NCBI GenBank assembly: GCA_031292145.1
Contig: JARLHR010000195.1
Location: 1-35,178, forward strand
DNA from: Clostridium sp.
Lineage (GTDB): Bacteria > Bacillota > Clostridia > Clostridiales > Clostridiaceae
Direction of reading: 5' to 3'
DNA: 35,178 bases
Shown here one piece after another: positions 747 to 32,093 of the stretch. The notes under the pieces were generated by a model, which saw nothing but the letters and a program-made list of their open reading frames with translations, made no database searches and had not been told where the DNA came from. Positions within the stretch are counted from its first letter, which is position 1. Every line of letters begins with the position of its first letter. A program made the translations under genes and the position numbers.

Positions 747-1991
747 ATGATTTATCACGATTTAATAATTGTTGGTGGTGGTGCTTCTGGATTAATGGCT
801 GCAATAGTTGCTAAAGATTTTGGCATAGATGTCGCTATTATTGAAGGCACGGATAGAATTGGTAAAAAAATTCTTGTAACTGGAAATGGTCGCTGTAATA
901 TTAGCAATAAAAATATCACTTATCCATATATAAATTTTCATAGTCAAAATAATAATTTTTTTCAAGAAGTTTTAAATAATTTTTCAATAAAGGATACTGA
1001 AAGTATGTTTTTATCTCTTGGCTTACCCTTAATCGAATTAGAAAATGGTAAGATGTATCCAAAATCTCTTCAAGCATCTTCTGTAATAGATATATTTAGA
1101 ATGGCTTTAGACGATAAAAATATACCTTTATATGCAAATTGTCACATTAATTCTATAAATAAAAAGAGAAACTTTGTTTTATCTACTAATAATGATGAAT
1201 ATGAAAGCTTTTCTTGTAATAAACTTATTCTAAGTTGTGGTGGAAAATCTGCTGTAAAAACAGGTTCAGATGGCTCAGGTTATAAACTAAGCAAATCATT
1301 AGGACATAGCACTATAGAACCTCTTCCTGGTATTGTTCAATTAAAATTAGATTATCCGTACTTAAAAGCCTTGTCTGGAATTAAATTTGATGGCTCTGCT
1401 TCCATTTTAGTGAATGATAAAATTATTCGTACAGACATAGGTGAAATATTATTTACTGACTATGGAATCTCAGGACCACCTATCCTGCAATTGTCATCTC
1501 ATGCTTCTAAGGCACTTTATGAAAATTCTAAGGTAACCATAAGACTTGATATGTTTCCATCAGAAAGTAAAGAAGATTTAGAAAACTTCTTATCTACACA
1601 TTTTTCTGTATTTGGCTACAGAGAAATATCCTCAGCATTAATTGGAGTTATAAATAAAAAATTAATTTCCACTATATTAAAAGACGTTGGAATTGCAGAT
1701 ATTCATTTACCTTGCAGTAATATAGATTGGAAATATATTAATAATTTAATTACTAAATTTAAAAAATGGGATTTCAATTGTATAGGTACTAATGGCTTTT
1801 CTAATGCTCAAGTTACTGTTGGTGGGATAGATACTTGTGAAGTTAATAATTTAACCTTGGAATCTAAATTAGTTAAAAATCTATACTTCTGTGGTGAAAT
1901 ATTAGATGTTCACGGTGACTGCGGTGGTTTTAATCTTCAATGGGCATGGAGTTCTGGTTATTTAGCCGCAAAATCTGCAGCTAGTAAATAA
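747..1991 (+). CDS. BaiN/HI0933-family NAD(P)/FAD-dependent flavoprotein
   Basis: The 414-residue protein has an N-terminal dinucleotide-binding turn GGGASG (residues 10-15) for FAD. The family hallmark TGNGRCN follows at 45-51. A C-terminal FAD-contact segment contains GEILDVHGDCGGFNLQWAW. These features place it in the HI0933/YhiN/BaiN group of soluble flavoproteins, probably oxidoreductases. In gut clostridia one member (BaiN) has been linked to bile-acid dehydroxylation, but most members have no assigned substrate, so no reaction is claimed here. The start is fixed by the Shine-Dalgarno AAGGAGAG ending 10 bases upstream. It stands alone: the next gene is convergent, and a stem-loop at 2029-2082 separates them. 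Confidence 0.9.
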   Translation: MIYHDLIIVGGGASGLMAAIVAKDFGIDVAIIEGTDRIGKKILVTGNGRCNISNKNITYPYINFHSQNNNFFQEVLNNFSIKDTESMFLSLGLPLIELENGKMYPKSLQASSVIDIFRMALDDKNIPLYANCHINSINKKRNFVLSTNNDEYESFSCNKLILSCGGKSAVKTGSDGSGYKLSKSLGHSTIEPLPGIVQLKLDYPYLKALSGIKFDGSASILVNDKIIRTDIGEILFTDYGISGPPILQLSSHASKALYENSKVTIRLDMFPSESKEDLENFLSTHFSVFGYREISSALIGVINKKLISTILKDVGIADIHLPCSNIDWKYINNLITKFKKWDFNCIGTNGFSNAQVTVGGIDTCEVNNLTLESKLVKNLYFCGEILDVHGDCGGFNLQWAWSSGYLAAKSAASK

Positions 1992-4882: not shown

Positions 4883-4955
4883 TGTTTTATCTGAGGATAT
4901 TTTGCTTATATTTTACCGATTTTAAATATATTTTACATATTAAGGAGTGTTTTTA

Positions 4956-6131
4956 ATGAATATTTATGAAGAAGCCTTAAAATTTCATGAAGAAAAAAGA
5001 GGCAAGTATGAAATCAAACCAACATGCGAAGTAAAGAGTGCAAAAGATTTAAGTCTAGCATATACACCTGGAGTTGCTGAACCTTGCCGTGAAATACATA
5101 AAGATCCTCAAAAAGCTTATACATATACTCGTAAATGGAATACAGTTGCTGTTGTTTCTGATGGTACAGCAGTTTTAGGTCTCGGTGATATCGGTCCTCT
5201 TGCAGCTCTACCTGTTATGGAAGGTAAAAGTATCTTATTCAAGGAATTTGGAAATGTAGATGCATTTCCTATAGTTTTAGATACCAAAAATGTAGATGAG
5301 ATTGTTAATACGGTTGCAAATATTGCTCCAACTTTAGGTGGAATAAATCTAGAAGATATTTCGGCTCCTAGATGCTTTGAGGTTGAAAAAAAATTAAAAG
5401 AGAGATTAAATATTCCAGTATTTCATGATGACCAACACGGAACAGCTATTGTTGTCTTGTCTGGCTTATTAAATGCTTTAAAAATAGTAAAGAAAAATCT
5501 AGATGATATAAAAGTCATCATAAATGGAGCTGGCTCTGCTGGAACTGCTATCTGTAAATTATTACTTTCCTCTGGTGTTAAAAATATAGTGATGTGTGAT
5601 ATAGATGGTGTAATAAGTAGAGATAAAGATTTAAGCAATAATATATACATGCAGGAATTGGCTAACATAACTAATCCCAACAATGAAACTGGTAAGCTGT
5701 CAGATGTTATAAAAGATGCAGATGTGTTTATCGGAGTTTCTGCTCCAAACATATTATCAAAGGATATGGTTAAAACCATGAATAAAGATGGAATAGTCTT
5801 TGCCATGGCTAATCCAACTCCAGAAATATTTCCTGAAGATGCAAAAGAAGCTGGAATTGCTGTAATGGGAACTGGTCGTTCAGATTATCCAAATCAAATA
5901 AATAACGTATTAGCTTTCCCTGGAATATTTAGAGGGGCATTAGATGTAAGAGCTACAGAAATTAATGAAGAAATGAAAGTTGCTGCTGCATATGCAATTG
6001 CAAATGCTATATCTACTGAAGAATTAGATGCCGAAAATATAATACCCAAAGCATTTGATTTAAAGGTGCAATCTTTGGTTGCAGAAGCTGTTAAAGAAGC
6101 CGCAATTAAAAGTGGTGTGGCTAGCATTTAA
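4956..6131 (+). CDS. NAD(P)-dependent malic enzyme (oxaloacetate-decarboxylating malate dehydrogenase)
   Basis: This short bacterial malic enzyme of 391 residues converts malate to pyruvate and CO2 with NAD(P)+ reduction. The malic N-domain shows SLAYTPGVAEPC with catalytic Tyr36, EGKSILFKEFG with catalytic Lys91, and the metal-binding HDDQHGTA. The C-terminal Rossmann domain has GAGSAG near residue 195, then CDIDG, whose acidic residues suggest NAD preference. I place the start at the ATG at 4956, nine bases after the Shine-Dalgarno AAGGAGTG. An in-frame GTG at 4947 lies inside that Shine-Dalgarno and is unlikely to be used. Confidence 0.95.
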   Translation: MNIYEEALKFHEEKRGKYEIKPTCEVKSAKDLSLAYTPGVAEPCREIHKDPQKAYTYTRKWNTVAVVSDGTAVLGLGDIGPLAALPVMEGKSILFKEFGNVDAFPIVLDTKNVDEIVNTVANIAPTLGGINLEDISAPRCFEVEKKLKERLNIPVFHDDQHGTAIVVLSGLLNALKIVKKNLDDIKVIINGAGSAGTAICKLLLSSGVKNIVMCDIDGVISRDKDLSNNIYMQELANITNPNNETGKLSDVIKDADVFIGVSAPNILSKDMVKTMNKDGIVFAMANPTPEIFPEDAKEAGIAVMGTGRSDYPNQINNVLAFPGIFRGALDVRATEINEEMKVAAAYAIANAISTEELDAENIIPKAFDLKVQSLVAEAVKEAAIKSGVASI

Positions 6132-6266: not shown

Positions 6267-6377
6267 TTATCCACATAGTTTTCATATAAAAGTTATGCAC
6301 AATATTTTTCTTTTTATTTATCCACACATTAATTTTATTATAGTTTTCCACAATTAAAAAGTATTGCTTTATCCACA
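6267..6377 (+). promoter_or_regulatory. Periodic array of five DnaA boxes outside oriC
   Basis: Five 9-base DnaA boxes lie on the same strand: TTATCCACA at 6267, TTATGCACA at 6293, TTATCCACA at 6318, TTTTCCACA at 6344 and TTATCCACA at 6369. Start-to-start distances are 26, 25, 26 and 25. Three boxes match the consensus exactly and the other two differ at one base. The TTATGCACA variant also occurs in the oriC cluster at 30296-30304. The array ends about 130 bases before the next gene. It could titrate DnaA, control the downstream gene, or serve as an initiation-control site. DnaA-box clusters outside oriC are known in other Firmicutes. Confidence 0.85.
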
Positions 6378-6504: not shown

Positions 6505-7020
6505 ATGAGTGAATTATTAATCCCAATAAATATTAATGAATTTAAGGATATCATCAATATAAGATTCAATACTATTCTAGATGGATTTGATAACTTCGAA
6601 AATTTTACCCTTATGACTAGTGATATAAAAAATGGAGAAAACAAGATTACTGAATTTATAGAAAAAGTTTTTGAAACTAATAATTATGAATGCTATATAG
6701 ATTTTTATATAAATAAAATTTCTAACGAAGATAAACAAAAACTCCTTACCTTAGTCTCTGATGAAGATAAGAAAATATTAAAGCTCCATTTAAATGCTCC
6801 GCCACATGATGGAGTTTTCTATAAGTTAACGAATAAATCTCTTATACCTTTTTTAGTTCGCTTAAATACAAGAGAGATTTTCTTTGTTACCTTTTACTTT
6901 GTTTATAAGCCGATTACTATATGGGGAAATTACGGTCTCAAATTTCCTTGTTTCTTTAGTAATCAAAGTGATTTAGAATTTTACCATGAAATGTGCAAAT
7001 CATTTGGATTACTTGAATAA
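6505..7020 (+). CDS. Hypothetical protein, unknown family
   Basis: I do not recognise this 171-residue protein. It begins MSELLIPININEFKDI and looks soluble and mixed alpha/beta, with no signal peptide and no clear membrane segment. It is rich in aromatic residues in its second half (FFVTFYFVYKPITIWGNYG). Three isolated cysteines do not form a motif. The start is the ATG at 6505, after the Shine-Dalgarno TAGGAG; an in-frame GTG at 6496 overlaps that site and is rejected. It is monocistronic: the DnaA-box array is upstream and a terminator at 7076-7114 is downstream, so DnaA control is possible but only inferred. Confidence 0.75.
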   Translation: MSELLIPININEFKDIINIRFNTILDGFDNFENFTLMTSDIKNGENKITEFIEKVFETNNYECYIDFYINKISNEDKQKLLTLVSDEDKKILKLHLNAPPHDGVFYKLTNKSLIPFLVRLNTREIFFVTFYFVYKPITIWGNYGLKFPCFFSNQSDLEFYHEMCKSFGLLE

Positions 7021-20861: not shown

Positions 20862-21722
20862 TTACATATTTATAATATCTAATATTCTTTGTAAATCTTC
20901 CTCAGAATAATATTCAATTTCTATTTTACCCTTATTCTTTTTATTTGAAATATTAACTTTAGTTCCAAAATAATTTTGAAGCTGATTCTTTACTTCCTTA
21001 TAGTATTGATTTAAATCTTCATTAGCCTCAAGAAAATCATTCTTTGGTTCTTCTTCATTAATCTTCTTTATTAATCTTTCTAATTCTCTAACTGATAATT
21101 TTTCATCAATCACTTTTTGTGCTATTTCATATTGTTTTGTCTTATCACTAATAGCAAGAAGCGCCCTTCCATGTCCTTCAGTAATAATACTTTCAATTAT
21201 GTATTGTTGAACTCTTTCATCCAAATTTGTCAATCTAATTGTATTTGTTATTGCAACTCTCGACTTTCCAATTCTTTTACTCAATTCTTCTTGAGTAATT
21301 TTAAAATCATCCAATAATTTTTTATAAGCAAGTGCTTCTTCAATTGGATTTAGATCCTGTCGTTGGATATTTTCTATCAAAGAAATTTCTAAGATATCTC
21401 TATCACTTAATTCCATTATAACTGCTGGTATTTCTTTTAATCCAGCCATTTTAGCAGCTCTCCATCTTCTTTCCCCAGCTACTATTATATATTGATCTTC
21501 GCTATACTTTCTCAGAATTAATGGTTGTATGATACCATGCGCCTTAATTGACTCTGCTAATTCAGCTATTTTTTCAGAATCAAATAACTTTCTCGGCTGT
21601 TTTTCATCACTCTTAATTTTATGTATTGAAATTAAGATATTACTACTTTGTTCCATAACACTTTCTGATTCCTCAGGTATAAGAGCACTCAATCCTTTTC
21701 CTAAAGTAAATTTTTTTGCCAT
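20862..21722 (-). CDS. parB: Chromosome-partitioning protein ParB (Spo0J)
   Basis: The 286-residue protein starts MAKKFTLGKGLSALIP, the usual ParB amino terminus that contacts ParA. The CTPase domain has GERRWRAA (83-90) and ENIQRQDLNPIEEA (117-130). The helix-turn-helix at about 142-161 reads ITQEELSKRIGKSRVAI. The specificity positions read Arg, Thr and Gly, as in parS-binding ParBs. The C-terminal dimerisation domain is present. The start is the ATG at 21722; a GTG at 21731 overlaps the Shine-Dalgarno TAGGTGAT. It follows soj by 9 bases as an operon. Confidence 0.97.
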   Translation of the reverse strand: MAKKFTLGKGLSALIPEESESVMEQSSNILISIHKIKSDEKQPRKLFDSEKIAELAESIKAHGIIQPLILRKYSEDQYIIVAGERRWRAAKMAGLKEIPAVIMELSDRDILEISLIENIQRQDLNPIEEALAYKKLLDDFKITQEELSKRIGKSRVAITNTIRLTNLDERVQQYIIESIITEGHGRALLAISDKTKQYEIAQKVIDEKLSVRELERLIKKINEEEPKNDFLEANEDLNQYYKEVKNQLQNYFGTKVNISNKKNKGKIEIEYYSEEDLQRILDIINM

Positions 21723-21731
21723 TATAATCAC

Positions 21732-22493
21732 CTACTGCCTTTTTAAAAATTCTTTAGTTAGTTTTACGTAGGCTTCTGCACCTTTGCACTTTTCATCATA
21801 TAACATTATTGGTAATCCAAAACTAGGTGCTTCTGCTAGTCTTACATTTCTAGGAATTGTTACATTATAAACCTTATCTTTAAAATATTTTTGAACTTCC
21901 TTTAAAACCTCATTGCTAAGATTCGTCCTATAATCAAACATAGTCATAATCACACCCTCAATTTCTAACTTCTTATTGAGTGACTTCTTTACTAATTGTA
22001 CCGTATTAACTAATTGACTTACTCCTTCTAATGCATAAAATTCACATTGTATTGGAATAAGAACCGAATCAGCACAAGCTAATGCATTTATCGTTAATAC
22101 TCCCAACGATGGCGGACAATCTATAAATACATAATCATATTCATCTTCAATTTCCTTCAACTTATTTTTTATTATATTTTCCCTATCATTTCTATTTATA
22201 AGTTCTACCTCTGCTCCTGCAAGTTCCATTGTGGAAGGTGAAATGCATAAATTTTGAACTAAATCACTCCTAACTATAGATTCCTTCATTGTTGTATCTG
22301 AAATTAAAACATCATAAATAGATAAATCTAAATTATTTTTATCTAATCCTAATCCACTCGTTGTATTTCCTTGAGGATCAATATCTATAGTTAAAACTTT
22401 ATACCCTTCCATTGCTAAATATGCGCATAGATTAATATTAGTGGTTGTTTTTCCGACCCCACCTTTTTGATTAAAAATACAAATTTTTTTCAT
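21732..22493 (-). CDS. soj: Chromosome-partitioning ATPase ParA (Soj)
   Basis: This 253-residue deviant Walker ATPase has QKGGVGKTTT (9-18), the signature lysine Lys10 and the second motif DCPPSLG. The length is that of the short Soj type without a DNA-binding N-domain. It moves ParB/parS and, in Bacillus, also switches DnaA between active and inhibited states. The Shine-Dalgarno AAGGG is modest. The upstream 244-base gap holds a terminator-like stem and an unexplained 16-bp hairpin. Confidence 0.96.
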   Translation of the reverse strand: MKKICIFNQKGGVGKTTTNINLCAYLAMEGYKVLTIDIDPQGNTTSGLGLDKNNLDLSIYDVLISDTTMKESIVRSDLVQNLCISPSTMELAGAEVELINRNDRENIIKNKLKEIEDEYDYVFIDCPPSLGVLTINALACADSVLIPIQCEFYALEGVSQLVNTVQLVKKSLNKKLEIEGVIMTMFDYRTNLSNEVLKEVQKYFKDKVYNVTIPRNVRLAEAPSFGLPIMLYDEKCKGAEAYVKLTKEFLKRQ

Positions 22494-22638
22494 ATTTAAG
22501 CCCTTAAAGAGCGTCCCCCCTTTCCCATATTAATATTATATATATTTTTTTACTATAATAAAAGATTTATGTTCTAAAAAACAGAGTTAGCATTAAATTA
22601 TCTTATAATATGATGATATTTATATAAATTAATAGAAC

Positions 22639-22670
22639 AAAAAAGGCATCTTAAAATATCTTTTAAACCC
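22639..22670 (-). terminator. Possible terminator of the noc operon
   Basis: Minus strand: an imperfect stem GGGTTTAAAA...TTTTAAGATGCC is followed by TTTTTT. It is A/T-rich and mismatched near its base, but the T-run position is right for ending noc transcripts. Confidence 0.45.
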
Positions 22671-22683
22671 TATAGCTTGACGA

Positions 22684-22721
22684 ATAATTAAAGTTAAGGC
22701 CATAACCTTAACTTTAATTAT
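22684..22721. repeat. Perfect 16-bp inverted repeat between soj and noc
   Basis: Bases 22684-22699 pair perfectly with 22706-22721 around CCATAA. The stem begins ATAATTAAAGTTAAGG. There is no T-run on either side, so its role is uncertain. It lies 17 bases past the noc stop codon and may be part of the transcript end. Confidence 0.7.
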
Positions 22722-22737
22722 ATACTATCATTAAATT

Positions 22738-23520
22738 TTATTTCTTTATTTTCGGAATCTTTACTGTTACTTCTATAAATTCTTCTTCATCCTTGTATTG
22801 ATATTCAGCTGGTATGTCAAATTTTTGTAATACTTGTTTAATTGTATTTACGTATAATTTTGCAGGTAAAACACCTTTGATATTCCTTTTTCCCTTATTT
22901 TTTAGTTCCTGTCCTGCAAGTTTAAGTAATTCTTTATTAATAAGTTCCTCTGTCTTTTTTACATTTAATCCATCGTTTATTACCCTTTGGACTATTTTTA
23001 ATTGTAGTTCTTCACTTGGAACTGTAAGCAATGCTCTTGCATGCCTTTCTGTTAATTTATTCTTTAAACATATTTCTCTAACTTCAGAACTTAACTTTAA
23101 CAATCTCAATTTATTTGCAATTGTAGATTGTTTTTTTCCCATCCTCTTAGCAAGTTCATCTTGTGTGAAATTATGATCATTAATTAAATTATAATATGCC
23201 TCTGCTTCTTCAATATAATTTAAATCTTCTCTTTGCAAGTTTTCTAATAATGCTATCTGAGCTGATTCAGAATCTGTTATATCTATAACATTGCAAGGAA
23301 CTGTTTCTAGATTAGCTAATTTTGCAGCTCTAAGCCTTCTTTCACCTGCTACTAATTCGAAAACTTCGCCTCTCTTCCTTACTGTGAGAGGTTGAATTAT
23401 TCCATATTGCTTAATTGATTGTGATAATTCTTCAATTGCATCTTCATTAAAATATTTACGCGGTTGATATATATTTGGAATTACCTTATCTATATTAATT
23501 TTTACTATTTCATTGTTCAT
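22738..23520 (-). CDS. noc: Nucleoid occlusion protein Noc (ParB family)
   Basis: This 260-residue ParB paralog blocks division over the nucleoid in Bacillus. It has GERRLRAA (59-66), LENLQREDLNYIEEAEAY (92-109) and the helix-turn-helix FTQDELAKRMGKKQSTIANK (118-137). The specificity residues are the Noc-type Gln131, Lys137 and Arg159 in TERHARAL, contrasting with Arg/Thr/Gly in the neighbouring ParB. I place the start at the ATG at 23520 (MNNEIVKIN). A GTG at 23556 would add 12 residues but has no ribosome site. The upstream GGGATGGG element is only a fair Shine-Dalgarno. Confidence 0.92.
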   Translation of the reverse strand: MNNEIVKINIDKVIPNIYQPRKYFNEDAIEELSQSIKQYGIIQPLTVRKRGEVFELVAGERRLRAAKLANLETVPCNVIDITDSESAQIALLENLQREDLNYIEEAEAYYNLINDHNFTQDELAKRMGKKQSTIANKLRLLKLSSEVREICLKNKLTERHARALLTVPSEELQLKIVQRVINDGLNVKKTEELINKELLKLAGQELKNKGKRNIKGVLPAKLYVNTIKQVLQKFDIPAEYQYKDEEEFIEVTVKIPKIKK

Positions 23521-23642
23521 GTTCCCAACCCATCCCTTATCAAAATACTGTATCACATCTACTTATTCATTCTACTTTAATTGCACTTTTCCTTTAAATT
23601 TCTATTATTTTATTATAATTCATCTAAATAATCATGTTGATA

Positions 23643-30161: not shown

Positions 30162-30549
30162 TGTTGATAAATATATTTTATATATATTTTTTTGTGGATA
30201 ACTTCTTGAATGTGAGTAATTACTTATGTTATCATATGTATTATGTTGTGAATAATTTATTGGCAAACAAGTTTATCCACAAGTGTGGATAAACTTGTGC
30301 ATAACTTGTTTGATTCTCATTATACGTACATGCTACACATCGTATTAGTGCTGGATTTAGTACATGTTTATAACTTTTAGAATGCTTTGTTATTAATTTT
30401 TTATAAAAAATATTTCTAAACATAATTATTAACCTGTTGATATATTTATATACATACTTGGCTATAATATAAAAATGTTTATATTTTTGTTGATAAACTG
30501 TACATAACATCCTAAAAAATTTTTTTATTAAAATATTGGAGGAATAAGA
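30162..30549. other. oriC, upstream DnaA-box cluster (rpmH-dnaA intergenic)
   Basis: DnaA boxes, consensus or near it, are at 30162-30170 (TGTTGATAA), 30193-30201 (TGTGGATAA), 30247-30255 (TGTGAATAA), 30273-30281 (TTATCCACA), 30284-30292 (TGTGGATAA), 30296-30304 (TGTGCATAA) and 30488-30496 (TGTTGATAA). The two central consensus boxes face each other inside a 15-bp inverted repeat (30267-30298). A TATAAT at 30463-30468 may be the dnaA -10 box, without a well-spaced -35. The region corresponds to the upstream half of a bipartite Firmicutes oriC. Confidence 0.9.
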
Positions 30550-31899
30550 ATGGATGCCGATCTAAAAAATTTATGGGATAAAACCTTAGATATTATAAAA
30601 AGTGAGCTCAGTGAAGTTAGCTTTAATACCTGGATTAAAAGTTGCGAACCACTATCTATTTCTTCAGATACACTTAAGATAAGCGTTCCGAATTCCTTTA
30701 CTCAAGATATTTTAGATAAACGATATAAGGTTTTAGTTGCAAATTCCATAAAAGCAGTATGTTCAAAATTATATAAAATCGAATTTATTATAATGACCGA
30801 AGGTTATGATAAAGACGAAATTAAAGTAAATGATACTGCAGCCTCAAAATCAATTATTGTTAATGATGAAATGTCTTCAACGTTAAATCCAAAATATACA
30901 TTTAATTCTTTTGTAATAGGCAATAGCAATAGATTTGCCCATGCAGCATCACTAGCTGTTGCTGAATCACCTGCAAAGGCTTATAATCCTTTATTCATAT
31001 ATGGTGGGGTTGGACTTGGAAAAACTCATTTGATGCATGCTATAGGGCACTACATTTTAGATGGAAACCCTAATGCAAAAGTAGTATATGTCTCTTCTGA
31101 AAAATTTACTAATGAATTAATTAATGCTATTAAAGATGATAAGAATGAAGAATTTAGAAATAAATATAGAAATGTAGACATCCTACTTATAGATGATATT
31201 CAATTCATCGCTGGAAAGGAACGTACCCAAGAAGAATTCTTCCATACGTTTAATGCATTACATGATGCAAATAAGCAAATTATACTATCTTCAGATAGAC
31301 CACCAAAAGAAATTCCAACATTAGAAGATAGACTTCGCTCTAGATTTGAATGGGGCTTAATAGCGGATATTCAAGTTCCTGATTTTGAAACTAGAATGGC
31401 TATTTTGAAAAAGAAAGCAGATGTTGAAAATTTAAATGTTGATAACGCAGTTATGGGATATATTGCTACAAAAATTAAATCAAATATAAGAGAGCTCGAG
31501 GGAGCGTTAATACGAATCATTGCCTATTCTTCACTAACCAATAGGGAAGTTACTGTAGATTTAGCTTCTGAAGCATTAAAAGATATTATCTCTAAAAAAC
31601 AAGGAAAACATGTGACTATTGATTCCATACAAGATGTAGTTTCTAGTTACTTTAATTTACGTGTAGAAGATTTAAAATCTCAAAGGAGAACTAGAAATGT
31701 TGCTTATCCAAGGCAAATTGCAATGTATTTAAGTAGAAAACTAACTGATATGTCTTTACCTAAGATTGGAGAAGAATTTGGAGGAAGGGATCATACTACA
31801 GTTATACACGCTTATGAAAAAATATCAGAAAACTTAAAAACTGATGATTCTCTTCAACACACAATTAATGATATTACTAAAAAATTAACTCAAAATTAA
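30550..31899 (+). CDS. dnaA: Chromosomal replication initiator protein DnaA
   Basis: The 449-residue initiator has four domains. Domain I (1-80) has [21 protein letters not shown]. Domain II is a short linker (about 85-115). The AAA+ domain III has Walker A GGVGLGKT (152-159) and Walker B ILLIDD (211-216). Domain IV has the DnaA-box-binding signature [14 protein letters not shown] (411-424). The Shine-Dalgarno GGAGGAA precedes the ATG. DnaA boxes flank the gene on both sides, implying autoregulation. Confidence 0.99.
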
Positions 31900-32009
31900 T
31901 CCACACCTGTACATAATAACCGAATAACAACTTGTGGATAATATTTTTGTGGTTCTAATTAACTTTAACTTGTGGATAACCAGTTTAAATTGTTACTGAC
32001 TTATCCACA
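31897..32009. other. oriC, downstream DnaA-box cluster (dnaA-dnaN intergenic)
   Basis: Boxes: 31897-31905 (TAATCCACA), 31933-31941 (TGTGGATAA), 31971-31979 (TGTGGATAA) and 32001-32009 (TTATCCACA). Three match the consensus exactly. The first overlaps the dnaA stop codon. Together with the box at 32055 and the DnaA-trio run they form the likely unwinding half of the origin. Confidence 0.9.
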
Positions 32010-32054
32010 ATATTTTTGAATAAAATTTTGTTGATATGAGCGGGATTAAAGCAG

Positions 32055-32093
32055 TTATCAACAAATCAACAGCCCCTACTACTATTATTACTA
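32055..32093 (+). other. Probable basal origin unwinding site (DnaA box, GC tract, DnaA-trios)
   Basis: A DnaA-box variant TTATCAACA (32055-32063) is followed by a GC-rich patch AGCCCC (32071-32076). Then comes CTACTACTATTATTACTA (32076-32093), whose complement reads as six 3'-(G/A)AT trios. This is the order (box, GC patch, trios) described for the Bacillus subtilis unwinding element, and it lies in the same place, between dnaA and dnaN. AT-rich DNA continues to the dnaN ribosome site. Confidence 0.8.

Follow-up and report, generated by a model that had tools for sequence, protein, structure and literature searches.

A regularly spaced row of DnaA boxes close to oriC, conserved in many Clostridium genomes, suggests a brake on starting DNA replication

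Introduction

What could be the role of five evenly spaced DnaA boxes, all on one strand, in a gap between two genes outside the replication origin of Clostridium? The question is raised by a stretch of 35,178 nucleotides from Clostridium sp. (hereafter the window), a contig on which dnaA, dnaN and the two oriC clusters are found. Clusters of DnaA boxes outside oriC are already known, as are DnaA sites inside B. subtilis genes (PMC4447404), and the accounts of Clostridium and Clostridioides origins in PMC7561715 and PMC5749712 describe clusters around dnaA. In B. subtilis, the clusters outside oriC, taken together, are reported to hold initiation back; titration of DnaA is the role ascribed to them, their effect is weaker near the terminus, and the deletion of all six leads to early initiation, which is read as sensitivity to free DnaA (Okumura et al. 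2012, as cited in PMC5295017, PMC13220808, PMC11019786, PMC5010248).

The array in the window

The array and the features around it are the following:

6267..6377, + strand: in-register DnaA-box array of five boxes, steps 26/25/26/25 bp (box scan)
6267..6275, + strand: DnaA box 1, TTATCCACA
6293..6301, + strand: DnaA box 2, TTATGCACA
6318..6326, + strand: DnaA box 3, TTATCCACA
6344..6352, + strand: DnaA box 4, TTTTCCACA
6369..6377, + strand: DnaA box 5, TTATCCACA
4947..6131, + strand: malic enzyme gene (PF00390/PF03949), upstream neighbour, not adjoining the array in some relatives
6505..7020, + strand: gene for a 171-aa protein, downstream neighbour, not adjoining the array in some relatives
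747..1991, + strand: HI0933-like flavoprotein gene (PF03486), whose coding sequence holds the array in many relatives
1128..1214, + strand: site homologous to the coding array B1-B4 of relatives (coordinates from alignment), with no box left in the window
30162..30304, no strand assigned: oriC box cluster upstream of dnaA, mixed orientation, irregular
30550..31899, + strand: dnaA (PF00308, PF08299)
31897..32063, no strand assigned: oriC box cluster between dnaA and dnaN, mixed orientation, irregular

The array lies in a 373-bp gap with 22% GC, between the end of the malic-enzyme ORF (6131) and the ATG at 6505, which follows the last box by 128 bp, and it is located 24.3 kb upstream of the dnaA start (30550). 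A preliminary description of this DNA had reported five same-strand boxes with these steps in a gap of this length, about 24 kb from dnaA and more regular than either oriC cluster; re-reading of the coordinates and box positions agreed on every point, and its judgement that chance is very unlikely was borne out. Specifically, 20,000 dinucleotide shuffles of the gap yielded at most three same-strand TTWTNCACA boxes, and that once, against the five of the real gap. Moreover, a search of the 6,342,069-bp assembly for two boxes 14-19 bp apart on one strand returned four matches, all within the array, and the reversed-pattern control returned none across the same assembly. With at least three DnaA-consensus boxes grouped outside oriC, the array resembles the Bacillus type of cluster. 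As for its surroundings, the 171-aa protein has no Pfam match and none above the cut-off in NCBIfam, and it is present in 31 of the 59 genomes searched, the window's own included. Two ParB-family genes and one ParA-type gene are found between the array and dnaA (20862-23556).

Persistence of the intergenic array in relatives

A three-box pattern with gaps of 15-18 bp was present in 18 of the 68 genus genomes searched, in 22 of 225 from the order and in a single one of 398 taken from the phylum, namely the window's own, and the reversed pattern was absent from every genome searched in the three sets. All but one of the 18 genus matches are intergenic and lie downstream of purA or the malic enzyme gene and before proC; this region contains extra genes in G022, G030 and G032, and in G023 its far side is a contig end. 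In the eighteenth match (G013) the array lies within a gene. An intergenic array is also present in G076, with a mismatch in the third box and steps of 26/25/26/26, bringing the intergenic form to 18 of the 68 Clostridium genomes (17 by pattern plus G076). A second in-register array occurs in G032, 3.4 kb away, between AraC-type and response-regulator genes.

The 171-aa gene does not adjoin the array in G005, G022, G068 and G090, nor does the malic enzyme gene in G022, G032, G068 and G072, while in G030 the array is 20 kb from the 171-aa gene, beside which a degenerate three-box copy is found. Furthermore, the DNA surrounding 22 more distant homologues of the 171-aa gene (L013-L034, one of them from G021) contains no array. 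The neighbouring genes thus change while the array persists, which indicates that it is tied to neither of them.

Loss of the boxes or of their spacing in close relatives, the outcome that the preliminary description had singled out as speaking against it, is confined to two cases within the window's clade (20 genomes: 19 by HI0933 identity plus G023): 18 retain in-register arrays, G021 has an irregular cluster and G069 has none, its gap between the malic enzyme gene and proC being devoid of boxes. As G069 is the nearest neighbour of the window in the HI0933 tree, the array is dispensable there. Contig C1 of this genome carries thirteen dispersed copies of a 44-45-bp element consisting of TTATACACA, a spacer and TTATCCACA.

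Among the genomes with the array and dnaA on one contig (single-contig chromosomes being taken as circular), 13 of 14 intergenic arrays are placed 22-27 kb upstream of dnaA and on its strand, and that of G030 is at 47 kb. The irregular clusters of G021 and G083 are about 22.6-22.7 kb from dnaA. This fixed distance may merely reflect conserved gene order. An extra, less regular three-box cluster (steps of 26 and 46) is present in G002 and G033, in the latter between proC and dnaB.

Conservation of the register and of the boxes

Over 25 arrays, 79 of the 81 same-strand neighbour steps of 15-40 bp measure 24-27 bp (24 bp once, 25 bp 25 times, 26 bp 46 times and 27 bp seven times), and six further steps of 42-68 bp exceed that range. 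Of these arrays, 19 belong to the genus, with G030 and G032 contributing a pair each, and six to g24 and g57; the count leaves aside the coding arrays, G021 and G083, and G076 contributed no step. The register survives changes in length: G008 and G059 are without about one unit that is present in G034, G027 and G081, and keep it nonetheless. A step of 29 bp separates two coding boxes in G220 and G221.

The mean pairwise identity of box, spacer and flank columns was 0.92/0.70/0.60 and 0.97/0.79/0.73 in two groups of six genomes each, where part of the box-column excess is built in, since box columns were defined by boxes in at least three of the six rows. The second box is identical at eight of its nine positions throughout the first group and varies at position 5 alone (G, A, A, A, A and T), as is expected of a DnaA box. 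The letter tally over 113 boxes is no evidence of this kind because the boxes were chosen with the same pattern. Taken as comparative sequence evidence, the relatives indicate that the array is under selection.

The array does not have the double boxes with 2-3 bp gaps of the E. coli type. The gaps between its boxes are 15-18 bp and contain no good partner box: at gaps of 2-3 bp an average of 3.0-3.2 of 9 positions match, versus 2.8 in shuffles, and only 0-3 of 76 unique spacers reach a match of 6/9. Cryptic partner boxes, which would give a continuous DnaA filament, were also considered and rejected, since matches on the upstream side of the boxes were only slightly in excess (z of 3.7 at a gap of 1 bp, 2.3 and 2.5 at 2 and 3 bp), with a 6/9 match in 2 or 3 of the 76 unique spacers at these upstream gaps of 1-3 bp.

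A coding form within the HI0933-like gene

The HI0933-like gene was taken from all genus genomes with a match (63 of 68) and aligned, and the sequences were divided into a far set, with below 70.5% identity to the protein of the window (n = 44), and a near set (n = 19); a coding box was accepted if its first base was A, C or T. In the far set, four boxes occur in 19 genomes, three in 13, two in five, one in one and none in six, and hence 37 of the 44 genomes hold two to four boxes, at steps of 25, 26 or 27 bp, within the coding sequence. In the near set, 15 genomes are without a box, three have one, and G090 has two in addition to an intergenic array. No strict in-register three-box array was found outside the HI0933-like gene in the more distant part of the genus. 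In the 24 genomes with a cluster position (single-contig chromosomes again circular), the coding clusters are 23.7-30.4 kb upstream of dnaA.

The complete tally of the 68 genomes is therefore 18 intergenic, 37 coding, two irregular, seven in which none was found and four not assessable. Specifically, neither the genome-wide three-box pattern nor the coding count revealed an array in G069, G009, G001, G035, G075, G006 and G074, and the assessable number is 64 because G015, G073, G078 and G082 have neither an HI0933 match nor a pattern match.

The boxes constrain the choice of codons. Leu-Ser-Thr is written TTA-TCC-ACA in 37 of 38 cases (codon usage expects 0.011). The box codons likewise prevail for Ile-His (ATC-CAC, 36 of 37, expected 0.012), Leu-Phe-Thr (TTA-TTC-ACA, 25 of 25, expected 0.033) and Leu-Tyr-Thr (TTA-TAC-ACA, 25 of 29, expected 0.036), with the caveat that these expectations treat the sequences as independent and relatives are not. 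After removal of sequences with at least 88% identity, which left 36 of the 44 far sequences and 16 of the 19 near ones for the synonymous tests, the synonymous identity of the far sequences exceeded expectation by 0.289 at the box codons, 0.012 between them and 0.044 elsewhere. When the comb of box codons was placed at 391 positions of the far set, the array ranked second, the first being the same comb moved by 10 codons and still overlapping the array, and all 12 best placements overlapped it; in the 16 near sequences the array ranked 40th of 391. Similarly, the array came first among 11-codon windows in the far set, where the start-codon region and codons 156-172 were high too, and it was not first when the 63 genomes were pooled (52 kept).

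Which form came first

In an HI0933 protein tree built without the array columns, 17 intergenic-array genomes are separated from 37 coding-array genomes by a well-supported branch; of the genomes with neither form, G083, G021 and G069 fall on the intergenic side and six on the coding side. The midpoint root is uninformative on the direction of the move. Outgroups were drawn from 40 genomes searched, 36 of which had an HI0933 match, and 30 loci were read: the coding stretch holds two boxes in G145, G220 and G221, one in G225 and one, with A as first base, in G092, and no box in the remaining 25. The presence of boxes at the coding site in two other genera makes this site look older. Moreover, 3 of 10 Leu-Tyr-Thr codon triplets in the window's clade are TTATACACA. 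Together, the outgroup boxes and these triplets favour, and do not prove, a history in which the coding array is the older and the window's clade moved it into the intergenic gap.

Distribution beyond the genus

Arrays are also present at other loci in g57, another genus (the C. mediterraneense group), with steps of 26 or 27 bp (L189-L193; G219, G220, G221), and in G219 they lie 209 and 336 kb from dnaA (L189, L190). In g24, the array of G123 is 18.8 kb upstream of dnaA and is flanked by dnaB and an acyl-ACP thioesterase gene. When 84,980 species were scanned with a related three-box pattern of 25-27 bp, 47 stretches were obtained, a lower bound given that the scan pattern is narrower than the arrays and that records near the window's genome were perhaps omitted: 25 in the HI0933-like gene, nine in the intergenic home region, five in the C. 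mediterraneense group and eight elsewhere, two of which are near dnaA. The intergenic carriers include C. beijerinckii HUN142, C. puniceum, C. chromiireducens and C. uliginosum, and the coding carriers C. tertium, C. celatum, C. nigeriense, C. paraputrificum and C. gasigenes. No Bacillus record is among the 47 stretches.

Looser two-box patterns gave a few matches of their reversed controls, in 4 of 13 and 5 of 13 genomes. Clusters more distant from dnaA are also present. One is written into a gene, at L241:8254-8415 (contig C75 of the window's genome) and likewise in L243, L245, L247 and L255: in the five of five genomes examined, a low-complexity, NVDK/NVDN-rich insert of an ORF of about 3,100 aa, of the GH94 family in L241 (the one scanned against Pfam), repeatedly encodes TGTGGATAA. 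This cluster is roughly 320-480 kb from dnaA in four near-complete chromosomes and is not in the 25.5-bp register. Another, intergenic cluster (L242:7968, C75:77967 of the window's genome) adjoins an ABC_trans_CmpB (PF06541) gene, and similar clusters are found in G008, G028, G030 and G068 (L244, L246, L248, L256), roughly 300-450 kb from dnaA.

Discussion

On balance, the array is probably a DnaA sink close to oriC that restrains initiation. The analysis establishes the array itself, its uniqueness in the assembly, the stronger conservation of boxes than of spacers, the register of about 25.5 bp, the persistence of the array as its neighbours change and its codon-constrained coding equivalent; DnaA binding, sequestration and the effect on initiation are inferred. 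DnaA would bind the five spaced single boxes, and the array, being about 24 kb from oriC, would be copied soon after initiation; the number of strong sites would thus double just as re-initiation must be blocked, and free DnaA would fall. The register of about 25.5 bp would represent the geometry of Clostridium DnaA on spaced single boxes. Of the two roles proposed in the preliminary description, a titration or regulatory site gains indirect support from the relatives that keep the array, and a promoter for the gene at 6505 finds no support.

Several observations weigh on the sink. Its conserved register does not fit a plain sink, and any titration load would be divided between the array and the box clusters 300-480 kb away. 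The arrays of G219 at 209 and 336 kb from dnaA also speak against it, as do the seven of 64 assessable genomes in which none was found, G069 among them. In B. subtilis, about tenfold overproduction of DnaA without over-initiation (reported in PMC13220808) counts against a titration sink, and so does the preference of E. coli DnaA in vivo for boxes 2-3 bp apart, as described in PMC11317965, against the gaps of 15-18 bp found here. Either the single boxes would be bound independently and the register would have another cause, or Clostridium DnaA would assemble differently.

A rather unlikely extension of these considerations is that the array represents the Clostridium chromosomal counterpart of a plasmid incompatibility array, that is, a row of DnaA iterons with a register of about 25.5 bp, some 25 kb from oriC, on which a specific DnaA complex switches oriC off and which moved between coding and intergenic sites while keeping register. 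If true, DnaA would assemble on spaced single boxes, beyond the paired-box rule of E. coli. Plasmid incompatibility iteron arrays, such as P1 incA, lower initiation by means of regular same-strand initiator sites that lie close to the origin without being part of it. The Clostridium array resembles them in layout only, with regular same-strand initiator-type sites near an origin; those arrays are bound by a Rep protein and control plasmid copy number, whereas here DnaA-type boxes are found on a chromosomal contig.

Unlikely as well is an active control complex instead of a passive sink, in which DnaA on the boxes would handcuff oriC-bound DnaA or form an off-state complex, in the manner of Rep proteins on iteron arrays located outside plasmid origins. 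The register, which titration should not need, is kept at the HI0933 codons, in the purA/malic-proC region and at the g24 and g57 loci, the difference between G008/G059 and G034/G027/G081 amounts to about one whole unit, and the boxes of each in-register array lie on a single strand. However, steps of 24-27 bp, and the 29 bp of the coding boxes in G220 and G221, indicate that the phase is not strict, and the plasmid parallel may be no closer than an analogy.

It is improbable that the array acts as a DnaA-responsive promoter element of the 6505 gene or of some other neighbour. DnaA is known as a transcription factor, according to PMC4447404, and the last box is 128 bp before the ATG, but the array is without the gene beside it in four genomes and 20 kb from it in G030, it lies within a coding sequence in 37 genomes, and the 22 distant homologues are without it. 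As the 171-aa and malic-enzyme genes come and go, a promoter role is unlikely, and for the 6505 gene it was rejected on gene absence, distance and coding form. Similarly improbable is another protein that reads TTATCCACA-like sites, for instance a nucleoid or segregation factor: parA/parB-type genes do lie between the array and dnaA, but both oriC clusters are made up of the same word, the boxes vary where DnaA boxes do, and we know of no other reader of such a word. Lastly, chance or a functionless relic of tandem duplication, for which the lack of an array in seven genomes would speak, is contradicted by the conservation data and very improbable, for shuffles never reach five boxes, the reversed three-box controls give no match, boxes stay while spacers diverge and the coding form is codon-constrained.

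Compared with known systems, the oriC-proximal sink favoured here comes closest to the B. subtilis clusters, a likeness that the preliminary description had aptly drawn: these too comprise several consensus boxes outside oriC, some near it, and their position matters. The strong B. subtilis sites are given in PMC4447404 as ywcI/vpr, gcp/ydiF, trmE/jag, ywlC, sda and yydA, and the genes at the array differ. Its neighbours (malic enzyme, purA and proC, or HI0933) revealed no orthology with a B. subtilis cluster locus, and the trmE/jag gap in the window has no box within one mismatch of TTATCCACA. Unlike the Bacillus clusters as presented in these sources, the array has a register of about 25.5 bp and no paired boxes, and its codon-constrained form has no Bacillus counterpart described there. 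B. subtilis DnaA binds in vitro inside genes such as codV and rplB; these intragenic sites are weak (Kd of 1.1 and 1.4 uM with ATP versus 0.13-0.33 at strong sites), and neither register nor codon constraint is described for them in the relevant part of PMC4447404.

The likeness to datA and DARS, also drawn earlier, is a weaker analogy. In E. coli, initiation is limited by datA, a cluster of boxes located outside oriC and sensitive to position, as summarised in PMC5010248; datA is IHF-dependent and promotes ATP hydrolysis, and B. subtilis is described in PMC13220808 as having neither IHF nor datA. Moreover, transcription through datA harms it (PMC5010248), whereas the Clostridium coding form sits inside a gene. 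DARS1 and DARS2 of E. coli are likewise DnaA-binding control loci outside oriC, but they reactivate DnaA, according to PMC13220808. A search of open-licence papers turned up no report of an array kept in register, of DnaA boxes constraining codon choice or of a comparable Clostridium locus.

The once-per-cycle control of initiation in Gram-positive bacteria is only partly understood, and B. subtilis has no Hda, SeqA or datA. From sequence comparison, a row of boxes conserved in many relatives suggests a conserved brake on starting DNA replication. Conserved through much of the genus, with a definite spacing, and dictating codon choice in an unrelated enzyme gene, the array offers a ready genetic handle on initiation, and it implies that a codon-level constraint in a gene may stem from replication control and not from the protein.
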